From Beijerinckiaceae bacterium (GTDB taxonomy: Bacteria > Pseudomonadota > Alphaproteobacteria > Rhizobiales > Beijerinckiaceae), in the NCBI GenBank assembly GCA_947453205.1, contig CANGFT010000024.1:1-55077 (forward strand): DNA of 55,077 nt. The letters run 5' to 3'. The notes under the pieces were generated by a model. That model was not told the DNA's origin and made no database searches. It worked only from the letters and a program-made list of their open reading frames with translations. The position numbers were made by a program, and so were the translations under genes. Below, one piece after another: positions 4,880-54,602 of the stretch. Numbering within the stretch: the stretch's first letter is position 1; each line of letters opens with the position of its first letter.

Positions 4880-4887
4880 GGGGGCGC

Positions 4888-4918
4888 GGCAGTCGGCAGT
4901 CGGCAGTAGGCAGTCGGA
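4888..4918. repeat. 7-bp tandem repeat (GGCAGTC), left block
   Basis: Four to five imperfect copies of the heptamer GGCAGTC, one with a G-for-C change, lie between the cupin terminator and vapB. The same heptamer forms a longer block just after vapC. Confidence 0.8.
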
Positions 4919-5314: not shown

Positions 5315-5722
5315 ATGTTCTGCCTCGACACCAACATCATCATCCACGCGATCAACCGCCGCAGACCGGAGTTTGCGGCGCGCATATCCCAGGAACTGCA
5401 AGCGGGGCGCACCCTGATCGTCCCGGCCATCGTGCGCTTTGAACTCGAATATGGCCTCGCCCGAAGCCAGCGCCGCGAGGCCAACCGCGCCATTCTCGAC
5501 ACCTTCATGGCGCGCGGCTTCGAACAGCCCGCCTTCGACCTCGAAGACGCCGCCGAAGCCGGCGACATCCGCGCCGCCCTGGAAGCCAAGGGCGCCCCCA
5601 TCGGCCCCTATGACCTGCTCATAGCCGCGCAAGCCCGGCGCAGAGGCGCAGCCCTCGTCACGCTGAACCGCCGGGAATTCGAGCGGGTGCCGGGATTGAT
5701 GGTGACGGATTGGGCGGGGTAG
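5315..5722 (+). CDS. vapC: VapC-type PIN-domain ribonuclease toxin
   Basis: 135 aa, a normal VapC length. PIN-domain acidic residues are in place: D5 in MFCLDTNIII, E43 in RFELEYGLA, D100 in PYDLLIAAQA, and N118 near the C-terminus in TLNRREFERVPGL. VapC toxins cleave tRNA or rRNA in a Mg-dependent way. It forms a two-gene unit with vapB. The TAG stop runs directly into a block of seven 7-bp repeats. Nothing in the sequence suggests that it is inactive. Confidence 0.93.
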   Translation: MFCLDTNIIIHAINRRRPEFAARISQELQAGRTLIVPAIVRFELEYGLARSQRREANRAILDTFMARGFEQPAFDLEDAAEAGDIRAALEAKGAPIGPYDLLIAAQARRRGAALVTLNRREFERVPGLMVTDWAG

Positions 5723-5770
5723 GCAGTCGGCAGTCGGCAGTCGGCAGTCGGCAGTCGGCAGTCGGCAGTA
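5722..5770. repeat. 7-bp tandem repeat (GGCAGTC)x7, right block
   Basis: Six perfect heptamers plus a final GGCAGTA start on the last base of the vapC stop codon. An inverted partner, GCCGACTGCC, lies at 5837-5846, so the transcript could fold. The same unit occurs at 4888-4918, on the other side of vapBC. Confidence 0.88.
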
Positions 5771-6186: not shown

Positions 6187-9100
6187 TTATCCCCGGTCAG
6201 GAAAGGCCTGACGCCACGCCTCGTCGATGCGGGCCATCTGCTTAATGGTGAAGGCGAGGCAGTCGGCCACAGCGCCGACATGTTTGACCTCATCGAGCGA
6301 CAGCTTTCGGCCCTTGCGGGACTTCAGATATTTATCGAGCACCTGATAGCCGCCGATGGTGAAGCGCCAGACCGGCTCGGGCACGGGGCCGAAGCTCTGG
6401 GTCTGGTTGATGTGGATGCGCTGATCCGCCTCGCCCCAGACCACACGCTCGACCGCATGATCGCCCTTCCCCGCATATTTCGCGATGCCCTTGCGGGGCA
6501 GGTCGCGCAGAAGGTGGGCCTGAACCAGAGCCCAGCCGAGAGAAGAAAGCGAGCCAAAATGCTGGCGATCCTGCGGAAACGGAATGCGGGGGAAGTCACG
6601 CCTTAAAAATTCACAATATCTTGTTCGGTAAGTATCTGAGTACAAACAGGCATAGGCATACCCGAATATCTCCTCAGGAGAGAAGTGATATTCATACAAC
6701 GAATCTAGGTAACCGCGAATTTCGTCAGAAATATTTTCTTTTTTGGAAATTTCTCCCGTATCGCTACAAGCATAAATATACAATGGAAATGAGTAACATA
6801 TTTCGGAAGTCCTGTTTGATACAGCCGTAGATTCTGCTGGCTCAGAAGTTATGTATACATGCTGCCAAGTCGCACCTGATTTAACCTGACGACAAGCGAC
6901 CAAGCCCATATTATCGAAACGAAGATGGTGATTCACTCGATCACGTTTGTGAACTGCGACATTCCGATCCCATATCGTCCAACGCTGATCGAAAGGCCTA
7001 TATGTAACTGCCTGCAAGTGATTTTTTAATTTAATATTTTTCAGCTCCGCCTTAGCCCTACTGTAATTCCATTGTGATTGCGAGCAAAGCCTAAATGAAT
7101 TCCTCGCTTCCGTCTCGCTACTTGATAAAAGTAGGGTTCGCACTTTTTCGATGGACTCCTCGCCGGAATAAGAAATAGCAAACTCGTCGTGAGTTGTAAC
7201 GAAACCTGGGGCCGGATCGCCTGACTTTGAGAACATATCCGCAACGGAGGCAAACATCCTGTATTTATCTCCGAGGATCTTATTTTGAGGTTTAAAAAGA
7301 TAATCTGGCGCGCTTGGCCTTACTTGCTCCCAATGCATGTCCGACGGCGCAGTTAGAGCGGTAGCTCTATACTTACTAATTCGATTACCCCAAAGGTCAC
7401 AATGAAGGACTTTGTTTTCCAGGCCACGGCTTTTAACAAGTAACGTTATTGAAACCCCCTGCTCAATATCAAAAACGTTTTCGTCTCGTGACCCGTCCGG
7501 CGCGGCTTCACTCTTTTTGGTATTACCGTGCAAATCGACAATAAATATCTGATTAAATGAGGTGAGTAGCGATTTGCGCATGCCTTTAAAAGTTGGATTA
7601 TCGAGGAATGAATGATTGGTAATTACAGCAATCACACCTTGCTCGACACTGGCTACCTCGATTGTCTGTGGATCGCCTTTTTTATCGGAAAATTCAAAGC
7701 TTCCCCCGTCCATTTTAATTTGGGCGAATCGTATGAACTTGACATAGTCATCTTGCAACCACTTGCCTTGCCCAGGCTTCGAAAGATCAGGAAAACCTTC
7801 ACGATATTTTTTAATCTGCGAAGTTATCCATTTGCCCTTGTTTTTGGAATGACCTGCATAAGGCGGATTTCCCACAATCACCAAAACAGGCTGTTTCTTA
7901 ATTGCGTGCGCAGCTTCCCCTTCTGCCGTCACTCCCGGAAACAACAAATCTTTTTGCGGTTTAATCGGCTCCAGCGTATTCGTCAAAAACACCTTCAACC
8001 GCTCATCATCCTTCAAAGGCAACTGCAGCTCGCGCAGATATTGCGACAGCTTGAGATGGGCGATGGTGTAGGGCGCGATGAGATATTCGAAGCCGTAGAT
8101 GTTCTTCAACAAATGCTCGCGCACGATCAGGTCCGCATGGCCTGCATTGGCGCCGCCGATGTTGTCGAAGATGCGCTGGAACACCTCCAGCAGGAAAGTC
8201 CCGGTGCCGCAGGCGAAATCCAGCACCGTGACGCGCTGGTGGTCGGCGAGCCCCTGCTTGATGGCGAATGTGTCTTTCAAAATATCGTCCACCGCCCGCA
8301 CGATGAAGCTGACCACCGGCGGGGGCGTATAATAGACGCCGCGCGCCTTGCGGGTGTCCTTGTCATAGTGATTGAGGAAGTCTTCGTAGAAATAGATGAA
8401 GGGGTCGCGCTCGAAGAGGCGATGCTCCTCCTCGTCCTTCGCGCGAAGCTTGCGCGTCGTCGCCTTGCGATGGCGGAAGGACAGGTCTTCATGAATGGCC
8501 AGAAGATCGAGCCCGTTGACGATGGAGAGGATCTCCTCCACCACCCAGCGCACCTGCGCATAGTCTTTCTTGTCGAGCTCCGCGAGAAAATCCACGAGTT
8601 CGCGAATGAGCTGGAAGGAGCTGGGCACGAACTCGCGCGCATTATGGAGGGAGACAGGCTCGTTGTCGGAATTGAGCCGCGCCAGAAAGAGACCATAGGC
8701 CAGCATCTGCGCGAAGGCGTCGGCGAACTCCTTGAGGGTGAGCTCCTGAAACACCTGTTTCTGGAACACCTGATAGAGACCCAGAAGCCGCCCTTCCTGA
8801 TGCTCCTTCTGCTGCCGGGTCAGCTCCTCGAAAAGCGAGTCGCGCAACAACCGCGCCCGGGTGGCGAGCGCGATGGCGAGCTGCGAGGCCCGTCCCAGGC
8901 CCTGCGGCGGCGTGGAGAAAAATCCGTGCAGCAGGTTGCGCACCGCCTCGACCCGGTCAGGCCGCAGGCGGAACTTGCGGTTTTCAAGATCGCTCGCGTG
9001 GCAAAGGCTTTCGCGCTGCACACCCGTTTCGCTGATCCAGATGAAATGCAGATAGTCCGTGAGGATGATGTTGCCCGAGAGGGTCCGGTATTTGGCGATC

Positions 9101-11348: not shown

Positions 11349-12284
11349 ATGCTCCATCCACCGATCAGCCCGCGCGAGAGCGGCTTTCTCGACGTCGGGA
11401 CGGGCCACAGCATCTATTGGGAGACCTGCGGCAGCCCTCAGGGCAAGCCCGCGCTCTTTCTCCACGGGGGGCCGGGCGGCGGCTGCTTCGCCGACCATCG
11501 GCGCCTCTTCGATCCCGCGCGCTACAATATCGTGCTCTTCGACCAGCGGGGCTGCGGGCGCTCGCGCTTTGCGGAGCGCTGCGCGGCCAACACCACGCAA
11601 GACCTTGTGGAGGACATCGAGCGCCTGCGCCTGATGCTGGGGATCGAGCGCTGGGGCCTGGTGCTCGGGGGGTCCTGGGGCGCCACGCTCGCCCTGCGCT
11701 ACGCCCAACTGCACCGCATGCGGCTGGAGGCGCTGGTGCTGCGCGGGGTCTTCAGCGGGCGCAGGAGCGAGGTCGACTGGCTCTACCGCTTCGGCGCCTC
11801 GCAGCTTTTCCCCGAACGCTGGCGACAGTTTCAGGGGGCCGTCGCGCCCGGGCGCTGCGATGATCTGCTCCATGCCTATCACGACCTGCTGATGAACGCG
11901 GACCCTGCGGACCGCATCGCCGCCGCCCGCGCCTGGTGCGCCTGGGAGGGCTCGCTGCTGACGCTCGCGCCGCGCCGGGGAGCGGGTTCGTCGAGCGAGG
12001 ACCATGTGATGGCGCTGGCGCAGCTCGAGACCCATTATTTCGTCAACGACTGCTTCATGCCCGAGGGCGAAATCCTGCGGCAGGCCAATGTGCTGGACGG
12101 CCTGCCCGGCGTGATCGTGCAGGGCCGCTACGATGTGGTGACGCCGCCCACCACCGCCTATGAGCTGCACCGGGCATGGCCGGGCTCGCAGCTCGAGATC
12201 GTGGACGACGCAGGCCACGCGACCATGGAGCCGGGCACCCTGCGCAAGCTCATGGAGGCGACGGACAGGTTTGCGGCGGGGTGA
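11349..12284 (+). CDS. pip: Prolyl aminopeptidase (proline iminopeptidase), peptidase family S33
   Basis: 311 aa alpha/beta hydrolase that removes N-terminal proline from peptides in the cytoplasm. Visible are the oxyanion motif HGGPGGG (39-45), FDQRGCGRS (64-72), the nucleophile elbow GGSWGAT with S109, and late acid and base candidates D262 (GRYDVVTP) and H290 (DDAGHATMEP). The length and the HGGPGGG motif match the family well. It starts 2 bp after the EutA-like gene, so the two share a transcript. A functional link between them is not obvious. Confidence 0.92.
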   Translation: MLHPPISPRESGFLDVGTGHSIYWETCGSPQGKPALFLHGGPGGGCFADHRRLFDPARYNIVLFDQRGCGRSRFAERCAANTTQDLVEDIERLRLMLGIERWGLVLGGSWGATLALRYAQLHRMRLEALVLRGVFSGRRSEVDWLYRFGASQLFPERWRQFQGAVAPGRCDDLLHAYHDLLMNADPADRIAAARAWCAWEGSLLTLAPRRGAGSSSEDHVMALAQLETHYFVNDCFMPEGEILRQANVLDGLPGVIVQGRYDVVTPPTTAYELHRAWPGSQLEIVDDAGHATMEPGTLRKLMEATDRFAAG

Positions 12285-47972: not shown

Positions 47973-48944
47973 ATGAGACGTTCGCAGGCGCCGCAGGGGG
48001 TTAGATCGATGCGTTTTGCGGCGCTTCTGGATCGGCATGAAGGTGGGGAGCTGTCGCAGGGGGAGGCTTGGGAGCTTTTGGGCGGCACGGAGCGGACGTT
48101 TCGGCGGTGGCGTGCCCGGTTCCGGGAGGAGGGCCCGGATGGATTGCGGGAGCGGCTGCCGGGGGCCAAAGGCCTGCATTCCGATCGCGTCGCCGCCGAG
48201 GCCGAGCAGTAGCTTCGCTTTAAAGGCCTCCAGATCTCTTCCGGCGGCGAGCGCGGCCTCTGGCGGCGCCACGGCCTGCTGACCAAGCACGAACGATTGC
48301 TGAGGCTCGGAAAACCAACCGCTGAACGCAAGATCGAACTCAGCGAAGAACAGGTTCGCCTCCTCGAACGCTTCTCGCCCGAGTTCCGGGAACGCCACAT
48401 CGAGGCCCCCCACACTGCCTCACTCGTCGCCGTAGACACCTTCTTCGTCGGCGCGCTCAAGGGCGTCGGGAAAGTCTATCTGCAAACGGCCGCCGACTGC
48501 CATTCCCGCCTCGCCTGGGCGCGGCTCTACCCCAGCAATCTGCCCGTCACCGCAGTGCATATGATGCACAATGCCATGCTTCCCACATTCGAGGCGCATG
48601 AGGCCACAATCGAGGTGGTGCTGTCGACCAATGGCCAGGAGTTCTGCGGTCGGCCAGACCAGCACCCTTATGAATTGCTCCTGCAACTGGAGGACATCCA
48701 GCACCCCACGCTGCTCGACGATCACTTCAGTGTGGAAGGGCGCCCGACATCGTTCGAAACAATGGACGAAAGGCAAAAGCCTCTCGATGAATCTCTCGAC
48801 GCCTGCAACGCCAAGCGACCACATCAGGATCGTGGCATGAAAGGCGGAACTCCGGCGCGGGCCTTGATCGAAGGCATCCCGAAATCAGCGCCAGAAAAGG
48901 GAGGTGACAAGACCGCCAAAACCAACCAGAAACAAGCCGCCTGA
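47973..48944 (+). pseudogene. Decayed IS481-like transposase with in-frame stop
   Basis: One frame runs from about 48009 (MRFAALLDRHEGGELSQGEAW) to 48944 and is broken by a TAG at 48210-48212. The first part is a helix-turn-helix (LGGTERTFRRWRARFREEGPDGLRER). The second part is an integrase core of IS481 type: VAVDTFFVGALKGVGKVYLQTAADCHSRLAWARLY, then VVLSTNGQEFCGRPDQHPYELLLQLEDIQH. The second catalytic Asp (normally LTDRGTEYCG) reads Asn, and the segment with the third catalytic Glu (normally NGICERFH) is missing. The element is dead. It marks the left edge of the exporter/Asn-Gly-repeat region. Confidence 0.85.
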
Positions 48945-49111: not shown

Positions 49112-50341
49112 TCAAACCGACCTTAAGGCCGCCACGGGCTGAAGCGCGGCAGCCCGGCGGGCCGGATACCAACCAAAAAACACCCCGACGCCGCCAGCAA
49201 GAATGACGGAGGCCATGGCTGCTTCCGGCTGCAGAAGAATCGGCCAGTCGAACTTCATCGCCACAGCGACGGCGACGGCGTAGCCGAGCATCACGCCAAG
49301 CAAGCCCCCAGCCCCACAGAGCGCTATAGCCTCAAGCAGGAACTGGCGGCGGATGTCTTTTGGCCGCGCGCCGACAGCAAGCCGCAGCCCGATCTCGGAG
49401 GTTCTCTCCGTCACGCAAACCAGCATGATGTTCATGATGCTGATGCCTCCGACGATCAACGAAACCGCTGCAATGGAGCCAAGCAGGATCGAAATCGTTC
49501 TTGTCGAAGCTTCTTGCGCGGCCATCGTCGCGGCTGCGGTGGTCACGGTGAAATCATCATCCCCCTCCCGGGTGCGATGACGCTGGCGCAAAAGAGCCTC
49601 AATCTGCGCGATCGCCGACGCCATGACTTCGTCCGAACGCGCGCTGGCGAGAATATATCCAACTGTGTCGCGATTGACGGAATTGGCGCTGCCGATCAGG
49701 CGCAGGGTCGCGGTGGAGATCGGCACGAAGGCGACATCATCCTGATTCTGACCGCCGCCATTGACGCCTTTTTCAGACAGGACGCCAATGATCGTGAAGG
49801 GGGTGCTGAGGATCCGCACGACCTTTCCAATGGGATCTTCGGTCTTGAACAATTCATCCGCAGCCTTCGACCCGATGATCGCCACCTTGGCGGCGCTCTG
49901 GATGTCATCCTGGGAGAACTGGCGCCCCATTTTGAGGGGCCATTCCCGAATCTCGAAATGCTCAGGCACGGTTCCGTTGATGGTCGTGGACCAGTTGCTG
50001 GAGCCATAGACGATCTGCGCAGCGCCGAATACAGAGGGCGCCGCCAGGGCGACTGAGGGGAGCCGTGCTATGGCCCGCGCATCTTCACCCGTCAGCGTGA
50101 GCCGGCTGCCGACCGCCCCGCGCACCCCGTTCCTGTTGTTGGCGCCGGGGTTGACGAGAAGGACATGGGCTCCGAAGGCCCGTATCTGTTCGGCCACGCG
50201 CGCCTGCGCCCCCGCGCCTATGGCCACCATGGTGACCATGCAGCCGACGCCGATCACCACGCCAAGCATGGTGAGGGCAGTGCGCACGGGATTGCCCATG
50301 AGCGCCGCCAAAGCCATCCGGATGGCGTCCGCGAACTTCAC
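49112..50341 (-). CDS. MacB-like ABC permease (FtsX domain)
   Basis: 409 aa from GTG at 50339-50341, overlapping the ATPase stop (GTGA). One N-terminal transmembrane helix (AALMGNPVRTALTMLGVVIGVGCMVTMVAIGAGA) is followed by a periplasmic domain of about 240 residues and three C-terminal helices (FtsX fold), including MLVCVTERTSEIGLRLAVGARPKDIRRQFLLEA. With the ATPase and the adaptor protein it forms a mechanotransmission-type exporter for peptides, macrolides, lipoproteins or small secreted proteins. The gene is last in a three-gene leftward operon. Confidence 0.92.
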   Translation of the reverse strand: MKFADAIRMALAALMGNPVRTALTMLGVVIGVGCMVTMVAIGAGAQARVAEQIRAFGAHVLLVNPGANNRNGVRGAVGSRLTLTGEDARAIARLPSVALAAPSVFGAAQIVYGSSNWSTTINGTVPEHFEIREWPLKMGRQFSQDDIQSAAKVAIIGSKAADELFKTEDPIGKVVRILSTPFTIIGVLSEKGVNGGGQNQDDVAFVPISTATLRLIGSANSVNRDTVGYILASARSDEVMASAIAQIEALLRQRHRTREGDDDFTVTTAAATMAAQEASTRTISILLGSIAAVSLIVGGISIMNIMLVCVTERTSEIGLRLAVGARPKDIRRQFLLEAIALCGAGGLLGVMLGYAVAVAVAMKFDWPILLQPEAAMASVILAGGVGVFFGWYPARRAAALQPVAALRSV

Positions 50342-51054
50342 TGAGCCATCTCCATCGGTCCCAAGGCCATGCGCGCCTGCGGGCAATCACCCACCAACTC
50401 GCCATCCCGCATGGTCAGGACACGCTGCGCCTGCGATGCGACGCCGGGATCATGAGTGACCATGATGATCGTGCAGCCCTGACGGTGAATGCTGTTCAGC
50501 AATTCAAGCACGCCCCGGCCAGCGACGCTGTCGAGAGCGCCGGTGGGCTCATCCGCCAGCAGCAAGGCGGGTTCCCCGATGATAGCGCGGGCGATCGCCA
50601 CGCGCTGTTGCTCGCCGCCGGAGAGCTGAGCGGGCGATCGATCAGCCTTGGCCCGCAGCCCAACACGATCCATCGCTTCCAGAGCCCGCTGTCGGCGTTC
50701 GTCTTTCGGCGTGCCCGCGTAGATCAAGGGCAGCTCCACATTGCGCCAGGCGCTGAGGCGCGGCAGCAGCAGATAGGATTGGAACACGAACCCAATCCGC
50801 TGATTGCGCAGCCGCGCACATTCATCATCCCTGAGCGTCGAACAATTCCGCCCGTCGAAGAAAAGCGAACCGGAACTGGGTCGGTCCAGCAATCCCAGGA
50901 GGTTCATGAGCGTGGATTTGCCCGATCCGGATGCGCCGACGATCGCGACGAACTCGCCCGCGGCGATTTCGAACGACGTCGCCTTCAGCGCCGTCGCCTG
51001 AGCGCCCTCGGCGCCATAGACCCGGCTGATGCCGCGCGCCGCGATCAGCATCAA
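50338..51054 (-). CDS. MacB/LolD-type ABC ATPase
   Basis: 238 aa. Walker A GASGSGKST, Q-loop in FVFQSYLLLPRLSAWRNVELPLIYAG, signature LSGGEQQR, Walker B LLLADEPTGALDS and VTHDPGVASQAQRVLTMRDGEL, all of the MacB N-terminal/LolD class. It is a separate protein rather than fused to the permease as in E. coli MacB. Its start overlaps the adaptor stop and its stop overlaps the permease start, so all three are translationally coupled. Confidence 0.94.
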   Translation of the reverse strand: MMLIAARGISRVYGAEGAQATALKATSFEIAAGEFVAIVGASGSGKSTLMNLLGLLDRPSSGSLFFDGRNCSTLRDDECARLRNQRIGFVFQSYLLLPRLSAWRNVELPLIYAGTPKDERRQRALEAMDRVGLRAKADRSPAQLSGGEQQRVAIARAIIGEPALLLADEPTGALDSVAGRGVLELLNSIHRQGCTIIMVTHDPGVASQAQRVLTMRDGELVGDCPQARMALGPMEMAQ

Positions 51055-52442
51055 TGGACGCCATTGAAGAGTGAGGCCCGCGCGCTGCGGGTTGGCTCAT
51101 TTTCGGCGATGACGACAAGGTCGCCGACCCTGAGATCTCCTGAATTGACCGCGACACGTTCCCCGTCGTCAGCGCCGGTCATGACCCGCACTGGCGTCAA
51201 GGCGCCCTCACGCAGCGCCCAGACAAGCGCGCCCGCAGTCGCCTTCGCGTCAGCGCCGACCGTTCCTACGCGCGGCTTGAAGCGCAGGGCGGCCATCGGA
51301 ACAGAAAGCGACGACGGCAGTATGTCCGTCACGATTCTCGCCACCACCGTCATGCCGGGGAAGAGCGCGTAGTCGTCGTTCGCCACGCCCAGAACAACGG
51401 TGTAGGTGACGACATTCTGCACGACCTGCGGCGCTTTGCGAATTTGCGTCACCTTCGCGTTGAATTCACGCCCCGGAAAGGAATCGACGGTGAAGGTGGC
51501 GTTCTGGCCAAGGGCGATTTTGGAAATGTCGCTCTCATCCACCCTTGCATGAATCTCCATGCGCCTGAGGTCGCCGGCTATGTTGAACAGCGTCTTGGCC
51601 TCCAGCGAGGAGGCGAGCGTTTGTCCCTGCGTCACATTGCGGCCGACGACCACGCCATCAATGGGGGCGCGGATGAAGGTGCGCTCCAGATCGACCGTTG
51701 CGCTTGCAAGTTGCGCTTCGAGGCGCCTTATGGTCGCCTGCGCGCTTTGCACTTCGGCTTCAATGCGCGTCACATCCGCAAGAGCCGCGTCGACAGAGCC
51801 GCCATGCGCCTCCAGATTCGCTTCCGCCTCGCGCAGGGTCGCCAGCGCGGCCTCCTTTCGCGAGAGTGAATCAAGCACATCGCTGGCTGGCGCGGCGCCT
51901 TTCTCCAGCAAGGCGGCCTTCCGCTTGTTTTCGCGGGCGGCGAGCTCCATGCCGATGCGCGCCACATCCGCCCGAGCGCTGAGGACGGCGCGCTGCATGC
52001 TGATCTGTTTGACATCGATCAACGCACGGGCGAGACGCGCCTCGGTGGTGCGGGCGTCCGCGCGGGCGCTGTCGAGAGCCGCCTGCGCCGAGGCGACCTG
52101 CTCCTTGAAGGTGCTTTGGTCGAGCTGCGCCAGCACTTGCCCCTTCTTCACATCATGGTTGAAGTCGACCGCCATATGGGTGATCTGCCCCGAGAGTTGC
52201 GAGCCAACCTCCACGACGATGGATGCGTTGAGGGCCCCTGTCGCGGAGACGACTTTCGGCAGGGCGATCCCTTCCACGGTGCTGGTCAGATAGCGGTCGC
52301 CCGGCGATGAGGCTCCCTCAAGTCGATCCGGCGTCATGACGGCGGCAAAAAGATCGCCCATGCCGCGCGTGAATCTATCGGGCGCTCCAGGCCAGATCAG
52401 CGCGGCGCCGATGATGGATGCATAGACCGCGATGACCTTCAT
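51051..52442 (-). CDS. MacA/HlyD-type periplasmic adaptor (membrane fusion protein)
   Basis: 463 aa from the ATG at 52440-52442 (MKVIAVYASIIGAALIW, an N-terminal anchor). A lipoyl half (VVEVGSQLSGQITHMAVDFNHDVKKGQVLAQLDQSTFKEQVASAQAAL) leads into a long alpha-helical hairpin (about residues 105-245, Ala/Glu/Arg-rich). The second lipoyl half is RTFIRAPIDGVVVGRNVTQGQTLASSLEAKTLFNIAGDL. It would bridge the inner-membrane exporter to an outer-membrane channel, which is not encoded here. First gene of the exporter operon and 104 bp downstream of an Asn/Gly-repeat protein on the same strand. Confidence 0.93.
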   Translation of the reverse strand: MKVIAVYASIIGAALIWPGAPDRFTRGMGDLFAAVMTPDRLEGASSPGDRYLTSTVEGIALPKVVSATGALNASIVVEVGSQLSGQITHMAVDFNHDVKKGQVLAQLDQSTFKEQVASAQAALDSARADARTTEARLARALIDVKQISMQRAVLSARADVARIGMELAARENKRKAALLEKGAAPASDVLDSLSRKEAALATLREAEANLEAHGGSVDAALADVTRIEAEVQSAQATIRRLEAQLASATVDLERTFIRAPIDGVVVGRNVTQGQTLASSLEAKTLFNIAGDLRRMEIHARVDESDISKIALGQNATFTVDSFPGREFNAKVTQIRKAPQVVQNVVTYTVVLGVANDDYALFPGMTVVARIVTDILPSSLSVPMAALRFKPRVGTVGADAKATAGALVWALREGALTPVRVMTGADDGERVAVNSGDLRVGDLVVIAENEPTRSARASLFNGVH

Positions 52443-52545
52443 GGCGCTGTCCTGTGCTGCCCAATGGGCGTGGATGTTTGCTGACGCGAGCAGGGCCGCA
52501 CCGACCCTGCGCCGCGCATCGTCATGCTGTTGCAGAGGAACCCGC

Positions 52546-53067
52546 CTACCGGTTGAACCGGCCATTGAAATTCCCATTCAACGCGCCAATGTTCCCGTTG
52601 CCATTGCCGGTCCCGTTGCTTCCGGTGCTGCCGACGCCATTGGCGTTCCCATTGAAGGAACCCAGATTGCCATTGCCATTGCTGGTGCTTCCATTCCCAT
52701 TGCCGTTGAAGGCCCCGGCATTGTTGTTTCCACTCGTTGAACTTGAATTTCCAAGGCCATTGAAGGCTCCGACATTGCCTGTGCCGCCATTCATGAAACC
52801 CACATTGCCATTGGTCTGCGGGGCGCCGTTGCCATTGCCGTTGCCGTTGCCGTTTCCCCCGCCTGTATTCAGGTTTCCGTTCATATTGCCGTTGTATATG
52901 CCGATGTTTCCATTGCCATTACCGTTGCCGCAACCAACGCAGGCGACTGGGGTGGGGGCCTGAAGGCTCGGGGTCGCACGGATTGGTTGCGCAGCGAGGG
53001 GAATGGCGACGATCACGCCAAAGTCTACACAAACCGCCGCGACAAGAATGCGATTGAGTTTTTTCAT
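52546..53067 (-). CDS. Secreted Asn/Gly-rich repeat protein 1
   Basis: 173 aa from the ATG at 53065-53067 (MKKLNRILVAAVCVDFGVIVAIPLAAQ, signal peptide). After PTPVACVGC the rest is low-complexity Asn/Gly with recurring hydrophobic pairs: GNIGIYNGN, GNVGFMNGG, GNVGAFNGL, NNAGAFNGN, GNLGSFNGN, GNIGALNGN, ending NGRFNR. The N-X-G-X-(hydrophobic)-N-G pattern also builds protein 2 next door. No named family is recognised. It could be a beta-solenoid or amyloid-like surface protein. It lies directly upstream of the MacAB-like exporter on the same strand, which could secrete it. Confidence 0.8.
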   Translation of the reverse strand: MKKLNRILVAAVCVDFGVIVAIPLAAQPIRATPSLQAPTPVACVGCGNGNGNGNIGIYNGNMNGNLNTGGGNGNGNGNGNGAPQTNGNVGFMNGGTGNVGAFNGLGNSSSTSGNNNAGAFNGNGNGSTSNGNGNLGSFNGNANGVGSTGSNGTGNGNGNIGALNGNFNGRFNR

Positions 53068-53166: not shown

Positions 53167-53221
53167 CAGTCAGGTGCGACGCAGCGAAACGAACTCGTCG
53201 CAAGCGCTTCGCACCTGACTG
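53167..53221. repeat. 13-bp inverted repeat (MITE- or IS-end-like)
   Basis: CAGTCAGGTGCGA (53167-53179) and its exact complement TCGCACCTGACTG (53209-53221) enclose 29 bp. It lies between repeat-protein genes 1 and 2. GTCAGGTG also occurs at 48969-48976, just right of the dead IS481-like transposase, so it may be a relic of mobile-element ends. It could also act as a terminator hairpin after gene 2. Confidence 0.7.
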
Positions 53222-53256: not shown

Positions 53257-53595
53257 TTAGTGATTGAGATTGCCGTTCAGGTTGCCGTTCAGCCAACCGC
53301 TGTTGTAGCTGCCGTTGCCATTGCCATTCAAAAATCCGGCATTCAGGTTGCCGTTGCCGTTGCCGTTTCCAAAGCCATGATTTGCATTGCCGTTCAGGTT
53401 CCCATTGCCAACGCCAAAGTTGCCATTGCCGTTGAGGTTGCCATTGAGGATGCCGGAGTTTCCGTTGCCATTCGCATTGCCATTGCCAATGCCAATGTTG
53501 CCATTGCCATTGCCATTGCCGCTACCGAAAGAAGCCGCAGAAGCAGCAGATGTCAGCATTCCCAAAGCGAGTGTCGCAGCGAGGATCTTTTTCAT
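53257..53595 (-). CDS. Secreted Asn/Gly-rich protein 2, made of 13-residue repeats
   Basis: 112 aa, ATG at 53593-53595 behind GGAGA. Signal peptide MKKILAATLALGMLTSAASA, then ASFG and six full units of exactly 13 residues with a 10-residue seventh. The consensus is N-G-N-x-N-G-N-x-N-x-G-(hydrophobic)-(L/G). Examples are NGNANGNGNSGIL, NGNLNGNGNFGVG, NGNLNGNANHGFG and NGNGNGNLNAGFL. There are no Cys, Lys or Glu in the mature part and almost no charge. Such strict periodicity points to a solenoid or stacked beta-arch (amyloid-like) fold. N-x-G-x-x-N is also the spacing seen in curlin repeats. The function is not known. Confidence 0.85.
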   Translation of the reverse strand: MKKILAATLALGMLTSAASAASFGSGNGNGNGNIGIGNGNANGNGNSGILNGNLNGNGNFGVGNGNLNGNANHGFGNGNGNGNLNAGFLNGNGNGSYNSGWLNGNLNGNLNH

Positions 53596-54074: not shown

Positions 54075-54602
54075 ATGAACAGGCTTGTGGCGGCGCTTCT
54101 CATTCTCGTGGGCTCGGTGTCGATGGCGGTGGCGCAAGCCAACAACGGGACTGGCAACGGCAACGGCAACAAGGGAGCCGGCAACGGCAATGGGAATGGC
54201 AATGGCAATGCGAACGGGAATAACAACGGCAACGGCAACGGCAATGGAAATTCAAGCAGCGCCACCATCAGCAATCGCTATCCGCAAAATACGCCTGCGG
54301 TCTTCGCGCCTGGCCTGACTGCGGCGGGGGTCGAAAGTTGTCTGGGCAGCGCGAGCATGGGCGGTTCTGTTGCGGGATTTGGAATCAGTCTGGGCTCCAC
54401 CACTGAAGACCGCGGTTGCCAGCTTCGTCTCTACGCACGGACTTTATATGCTCTGGGGCACAGACGCGCCGCGACTCAGATATTGTGCAACGATCCGCAG
54501 GTGATGCAAGCGCTCGCCTTCGAAGGGATTTCCTGTCAAGGGGACGATCCGGCGACTTCACAAGAGCCCCGGCAACGCCAATCAAGGTCCAAGCGTAATT
54601 GA
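54075..54602 (+). CDS. Secreted Asn/Gly-rich protein 3 with four-cysteine C-terminal domain
   Basis: 175 aa from the ATG at 54075 with GAGGGATC upstream. Signal peptide MNRLVAALLILVGSVSMAVAQA; residues 23-60 are nearly pure Gly-Asn. The C-terminal domain (about 62-157) has Cys89, 115, 138 and 154 in ESCLGSASMGGSV, DRGCQLRLYARTLYALGHRRAATQILCNDPQVMQALAFEGISC, likely two disulphides in the periplasm. A basic tail (RQRQSRSKRN) ends the protein. Similar Cys-domain proteins occur as uncharacterised secreted proteins in related bacteria. It is divergent from repeat proteins 1 and 2. Confidence 0.8.
   Translation: MNRLVAALLILVGSVSMAVAQANNGTGNGNGNKGAGNGNGNGNGNANGNNNGNGNGNGNSSSATISNRYPQNTPAVFAPGLTAAGVESCLGSASMGGSVAGFGISLGSTTEDRGCQLRLYARTLYALGHRRAATQILCNDPQVMQALAFEGISCQGDDPATSQEPRQRQSRSKRN

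Follow-up and report, generated by a model that had tools for sequence, protein, structure and literature searches.

What is a secreted protein made almost entirely of asparagine and glycine for? The question is raised by a contig of a Beijerinckiaceae bacterium (CANGFT010000024.1, assembly GCA_947453205.1; its 55,077 nucleotides are the window analysed here), which encodes a small protein, NGN1, filled with 13-residue units of the type Asn-Gly-Asn (N-G-N). NGN1 is the first gene of a row on one strand, followed by a second secreted protein (NGN2) and by a MacA-like adaptor, an ATPase and a MacB permease. Tentatively, and with a little more doubt than belief, we read NGN1 and NGN2 as the main subunit and the minor partner, respectively, in a surface fibre or coat that resembles functional amyloid, for which MacAB-TolC would serve as exporter in one lineage. 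The protein itself comprises:

53257..53595, minus strand: NGN1, 112 amino acids, a signal peptide followed by six full 13-residue N-G-N units and a partial one
53536..53595, minus strand: Sec-type signal peptide of NGN1, residues 1-20, ending SAASA, assigned by eye

The open reading frame, which lies on the minus strand and is preceded by GGAG before its ATG, and its period of 13 residues confirm the six full units and one partial unit that a preliminary description had placed behind a signal peptide. The mature chain, from residue 21, consists of the six 13-residue units and a final partial unit of 10 residues; 33 of its 92 residues are N and 30 are G. Identity at a lag of 13 residues is 0.67; in 5000 residue shuffles it averaged 0.24 (standard deviation 0.04), and the highest value that any shuffle gave at any lag from 5 to 30 was 0.45. 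The repeat had been called exact, and this is true of its spacing and not of its letters: four of the six full units are strictly N-G-N-x-N-G-N-x-N-x-G, and units 1 and 6 have one N to S change each. The Asn codons are mixed (17 AAC, 16 AAT), and the ratio of nonsynonymous to synonymous substitution rates (dN/dS) relative to the closest relative, L112 (94% identical), is 0.06, i.e. the gene is under purifying selection. Together, these two observations indicate that selection maintains the repeat at the protein level. In a DNA search of the same genome, NGN-like matches were confined to this contig, except for one 25-base match elsewhere.

Is the repeat peculiar to this genome? A search with phmmer found 14 relatives of NGN1, and in these proteins, found without any pattern of period, the spacing between units is 13 in 18 of 19 cases. 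A scan of a named genome collection for tandem 13-mers gave 110 stretches, in which the corresponding count (466 of 498 spacings at 13) is circular because the stretches were chosen by their 13-residue period. Most are from Hyphomicrobiales, including among the 80 matches listed Mesorhizobium, Methylobacterium, Labrys, Aureimonas, Roseiarcus, Bradyrhizobium, Kaistia, Devosia and others; 15 of the 110 come from records titled as other phyla. An NGN-like open reading frame occurs in 94 of the 110 loci, and 84 of these plus the window pass our rule for NGN1 (at least two tandem units, fewer than 230 amino acids, no TSGN), Mesorhizobium making up 39 of these 85 loci. The distribution is patchy, with NGN in 3 of 51 genomes of the genus set and 8 of 397 of the order sample, our own genome included in both. 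In an alignment of 33 hand-picked NGN1 proteins, 44 columns are invariant and every one of them is N or G. The preliminary description had allowed that the repeat might be conserved in no homologue; since it is kept in the 14 relatives and the 33 aligned members, this objection falls.

Another of its features does not extend to the family. One hydrophobic pair per unit had been proposed, and position 12 of the unit is indeed I, I, V, F, F and W in the window protein. Across the wider family this position is A or S in 41% of the 584 units counted, so the pattern of one hydrophobic residue per unit does not hold family-wide. Some relatives have further peculiarities. Those of Mesorhizobium soli (L030, L031, L032, L046, L095) carry His-rich C-terminal tails, possibly metal-binding, and four others (P0002, P0005, P0008, P0013) have a mature start of the form L-T/S-x-x-Q-L followed by A-G or G-G, which resembles a double-glycine leader placed behind a Sec signal.

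The notion that the repeat belongs to no named family holds. Pfam searches with the 33 NGN1 members at E<=1 gave no family except LPAM_1, a weak match in 4 of 33 (best E 0.27), a search of solved-structure sequences gave no match, and among the open-licence PMC papers that our literature searches listed, none has a title or abstract concerning the 13-residue repeat. The stacked beta-solenoid that had been suggested is built by AlphaFold at moderate confidence in two of five models, with 13 residues per turn and strands that span positions 2-7 and 10-12 of the unit. Outside the cell, NGN1 would thus be predicted to fold into a solenoid whose repeats are regular to the end, with no capping domain, and such solenoids might stack end to end. 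According to a passage of PMC10192328, solenoids that do not polymerise have imperfect or blocked ends. The same model would also suit a monomeric surface protein that binds glycan, ice or mineral through columns of Asn on one face. Alternation along the long strand would turn N3, N5 and N7 of every unit towards the same face, and the weak fold matches of NGN1 include ice-binding beta-solenoids, together with the CsgA fibril (PDB). We consider a monomeric binder distinctly unlikely.

If NGN1 is a fibre subunit, is it a curlin? Curli and the NGN proteins have much in common. Both consist of small Sec-signal proteins with Asn/Gly repeats and a predicted beta-solenoid, with a LuxR-type regulator nearby; both have what may be a major/minor pair, NGN1 and NGN2 being adjacent on one strand; and MacAB genes of the NGN type adjoin true curlins in four genomes. 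Yet the NGN unit has 13 residues, against 22-23 in curlins, and NGN1 has no Q-x-G-x-x-N, the core of the minimal curlin repeat given in a passage of PMC3521004 (X6-Q-X-G-X2-N-X10). The Curlin_rpt profile at E<=1 matched none of 33 NGN1 and none of 23 NGN2 members, and neither CsgG nor Curlin_rpt had a match in the window's own genome. With no match in the family, the motif unmatched and no Gln in the window's NGN1, we reject its identification as a curlin, and the likeness to curlin once seen in N-x-G-x-x-N does not survive.

Other repeat proteins were also considered. Class II hydrophobins such as QID3, HCF6 and CFTH1 have glycine-asparagine repeats at their N-terminus, according to parts of PMC2253510 and PMC7827705, and are secreted surface proteins with GN repeats, as NGN1 would be. 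In hydrophobins the repeat precedes a Cys-rich core, whereas NGN1 is repeat only. Lacking any Cys, and hence the eight-Cys core, and with no match to Pfam hydrophobins, NGN1 was rejected as one of them. A profile search (68 proteins) did reach a Microdochium protein, named hydrophobin by a source, and two Geosiphon proteins (P0109, P0117, P0140). All three have a lag-13 period reached by none of 2000 shuffles, and at E<=0.01 Pfam gave no match for any of them. Asn-rich precursors of ribosomally synthesised and post-translationally modified peptides also exist. NGN1 was rejected as one of these, given its Sec-type signal and the lack of any modifying enzyme among the five annotated neighbours.

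The genes that follow NGN1 offer clues on how it might be made and exported. They are, in order:

53167..53221, minus strand: stem-loop between NGN1 and NGN2, z -3.9
52546..53067, minus strand: NGN2, secreted partner of 173 amino acids, with an N-terminus of its own, a number of NGN units and the conserved stretch N-x-G-A-F
51051..52577 (limits of the open reading frame), minus strand: MacA-like (HlyD/RND) periplasmic adaptor, whose translation may in fact begin at the ATG at 52442
50338..51054, minus strand: ATP-binding cassette (ABC) ATPase of the MacB/LolD/DarD kind, a separate polypeptide
49112..50386 (limits of the open reading frame), minus strand: MacB_PCD and FtsX permease

NGN2 is conserved (dN/dS 0.055), and its 23 aligned members, hand-picked, have no Pfam match at E<=1; a plasmid search with NGN2 found no match either. 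Its N-x-G-x-x stretch recalls Pentapeptide_2 and the PPE-MPTR proteins, an identity that we reject given the 0 of 23 Pfam matches. The stem-loop between the two genes recurs, with z <= -2.9 at seven of eight folded loci, the window included (L091 has z -0.9), and in Mesorhizobium L028 it terminates in a U run. It could possibly act as an attenuator or message stabiliser, and its place behind NGN1 fits unequal expression of NGN1 and NGN2. The MacB end of the row adjoins a fragment of an IS481-type transposase (48297-48944, plus strand).

The permease (PF12704, E 2e-49; PF02687, E 7e-20), the adaptor (PF16576, E 1.8e-20) and the related ATPase recall MacAB-TolC, and TolC-like proteins are encoded elsewhere in the genome (contigs C58 and C18 have OEP matches). 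The row differs from MacAB-TolC in that ATPase and permease are separate genes and in that scores are far below the equivalog cut-offs (265.9 and 253.6 bits for MacB, against 966; 127.5 for MacA, against 342). A passage of PMC5985334 describes how the enterotoxin STII reaches the periplasm by Sec and then leaves through MacAB-TolC. NGN1, another protein with a Sec signal, could be a MacAB substrate of this kind.

Is the linkage of these genes to NGN fortuitous? MacB was found at E<=1e-50 in 22 of 27 NGN genomes, with 23 matches of which 12 fall at 52-62% and 11 at 35-39%. All 12 of the closer group are on the contig that carries NGN, 2.7-4.6 kb from the NGN1 gene. In Methylobacterium longum, where no MacB reached this threshold, one contig ends in a MacB fragment. 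We also placed 48 MacBs in a tree, which includes L198 as a long branch and omits a cut NGN-linked MacB (L059) as well as 3 of the 32 order-sample MacBs, which lack a locus. Here 14 NGN-linked MacBs and five others form one branch (100/99), and the label of NGN linkage changes 2 times, against 12.3 in shuffles. NG-rich open reading frames near order-sample MacBs were not found in the wider stretches of ten such loci.

The five MacBs of this clade that are not linked to NGN belong to G091 and to one genus from another family, represented by four genomes. In G091 (L177), MacAB is flanked by two small signal-peptide proteins (7329-7634 and 11625-11918) that share the mature start APNANSQ, in an APNANSQ-TGNPGNGNQGC stretch. 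The four other genomes have a cluster of small signal-peptide repeat proteins near MacAB, listed for three of them. Pfam searches with some of the cluster proteins gave Curlin_rpt matches for three of the four submitted from L178, for one from L179 and for one from L181, and all Curlin_rpt matches of the four genomes are 4.2-5.4 kb from MacB. CsgG had no match in these four genomes (0 of 6 genomes searched). Among 27 other MacB genomes, one has a curlin, on a different contig from its MacB. A curlin beside MacB is thus found in four of five clade members against 0 of 27 others (Fisher p 1.4e-4; all four are from a single genus, and the MacB tree does not include three of the 27). Among the matches listed in a literature search for curlin and MacB, none concerned their link by title. 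Beside the curlins of these genomes stands a small conserved protein (L178, 14901-15206, and in L179, L180 and L181; 77-79% identity) with no Pfam match, for which we would guess a CsgH-like role.

Regulators provide a second neighbourhood signal. Upstream sequence of 3 kb or more is available for 45 NGN1 loci, of which 33 have a LuxR-type helix-turn-helix gene within 3.5 kb upstream, and one of 45 loci with 3.5 kb downstream has it there. Control loci around MacB have such a gene in 5 of 29 cases, and about 1% would be expected by chance (an estimate based on 16 genomes, each with 4-35 GerE matches). Since 23 of the 45 loci are from Mesorhizobium, we also counted per genus or label of metagenome-assembled genome (MAG), with the same tendency (14 of 19). 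These counts come from a hidden Markov model built from four GerE domains; a simple regular expression (1 of 85 loci) missed regulators called by Pfam. The regulator may be a receiver-LuxR with a HisKA_3 kinase, a receiver-LuxR or LuxR alone, so that it is the position that is conserved and not one gene. In the window itself it would be invisible, as the contig stops 1.5 kb upstream of NGN1. The LuxR-type gene and the MacAB clade beside curlins, in four genomes of one genus, favour the functional-amyloid-like surface protein first suggested from the repeat.

These elements can be put together into a possible sequence of events. A LuxR-type regulator, joined in some genera by a histidine kinase, would control the locus, as the gene order of relatives suggests. 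NGN1 and NGN2 would reach the periplasm through Sec, and the linked MacA, ATPase and MacB, with a TolC-like channel encoded elsewhere, might then expel them across the outer membrane as described for STII. This last step would be limited to the window's lineage (Beijerinckiaceae, Methylobacterium and Xanthobacteraceae/Bradyrhizobium). Outside the cell, NGN2 might seed or anchor the NGN1 fibre.

Several observations weigh against this reading. Three of the five AlphaFold models of NGN1 scored below 58, the NGN2 model was unusable (mean pLDDT, predicted local distance difference test, of 50) and fold searches with NGN1 gave nothing significant. The poor models, the very low complexity and the 19 Asn-Gly dipeptides of NGN1, a flexible and deamidation-prone pair, would suit an unfolded, hydrated Asn-Gly polymer secreted as matrix filler without any solenoid. 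But the exact register of 13 residues, the 44 invariant columns and the dN/dS of NGN1 exceed what a filler needs, and we regard this account as quite improbable. The position of the regulator gene is not uniform either: 12 of the 45 testable loci have no LuxR gene within reach upstream of NGN1, and in L017, L027, L080 and L090 it is downstream (the last three with shorter flanks). Some NGN genomes also have curli components, with Curlin_rpt in 4 of 30 and a CsgG match in 6 of 30.

The main weakness concerns the pump. MacA, ABC or MacB matches are absent from 7 of 10 fetched NGN regions (6-20 kb), among them Mesorhizobium, Kaistia, three Labrys and a Hyphomicrobiales MAG, so MacAB cannot be universal. 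In several Methylobacterium loci MacAB is divergent from NGN1, as it is in G015, of the window's own genus, where MacA-ABC-MacB lies upstream on the opposite strand. These loci are consistent with a small-molecule pump that shares a regulated surface island with NGN1 and has no part in its export; MacB-family pumps also move antibiotics and siderophores, according to a passage of PMC5985334. Yet all 12 close MacB orthologues are linked to NGN and fall in one clade, whose five other members adjoin other small signal-peptide proteins (curlins in four, the two APNANSQ proteins in G091). We take an unrelated pump to be a serious possibility, if clearly on the doubtful side. Nor does the association extend to curlins at large. 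Curlin_rpt is present in 77 of 397 order-sample genomes, and none of 20 further curlin loci, including that of G402 from the curlin-MacAB genus, has a MacB within 14.9-19.5 kb. On this ground we reject MacAB as a general curlin exporter, and its link with curlins is confined to one genus in our sample: the shared neighbourhood is real but lineage-bound.

The other side of NGN1 holds one more protein of the family's kind:

54075..54602, plus strand: NGN4, with a signal peptide, an NGN-rich linker and a C-terminal four-Cys domain

NGN4 is transcribed divergently from NGN1. It recurs at loci of Labrys, Afipia and two MAGs (9 of the 131 loci and stretches covered, among which some represent the same place) and has 88 homologues, 28 of which were aligned with the window protein. 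The four-Cys domain is also found in phages (phrog_20531; nine phage records). Far from these genes, the window contains tandem heptamers at 5722-5769 (GGCAGTC, 6.9 copies) and 4887-4917 (CGGCAGT, 4.4 copies), possibly phase-variable tracts.

What would such a system mean? The recurrence of NGN1 beside a partner, often with a pump or a regulator, in plant- and soil-associated bacteria points to a type of surface fibre or coat that has yet to be described. One might go further and speculate on a second, unrelated class of bacterial functional amyloids, an Asn-ladder solenoid with a unit of 13 residues and with major and minor subunits of its own, and on a MacAB clade that exports amyloid-like repeat proteins (mostly NGN, curlins in one CsgG-free genus) as part of the CsgG-free route postulated for alphaproteobacterial curli. 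We judge this larger proposal unlikely as it stands. If true, it would add a functional-amyloid family of almost two-letter sequence, useful for amyloid physics and designed materials. It would also give a testable answer to how curlins could be exported in some alphaproteobacteria that have the subunits without CsgG, a gap stated in a passage of PMC3521004. Among the genera that carry the NGN family, Methylobacterium, Mesorhizobium and Bradyrhizobium are examples associated with plants and soil, where attachment to surfaces matters.
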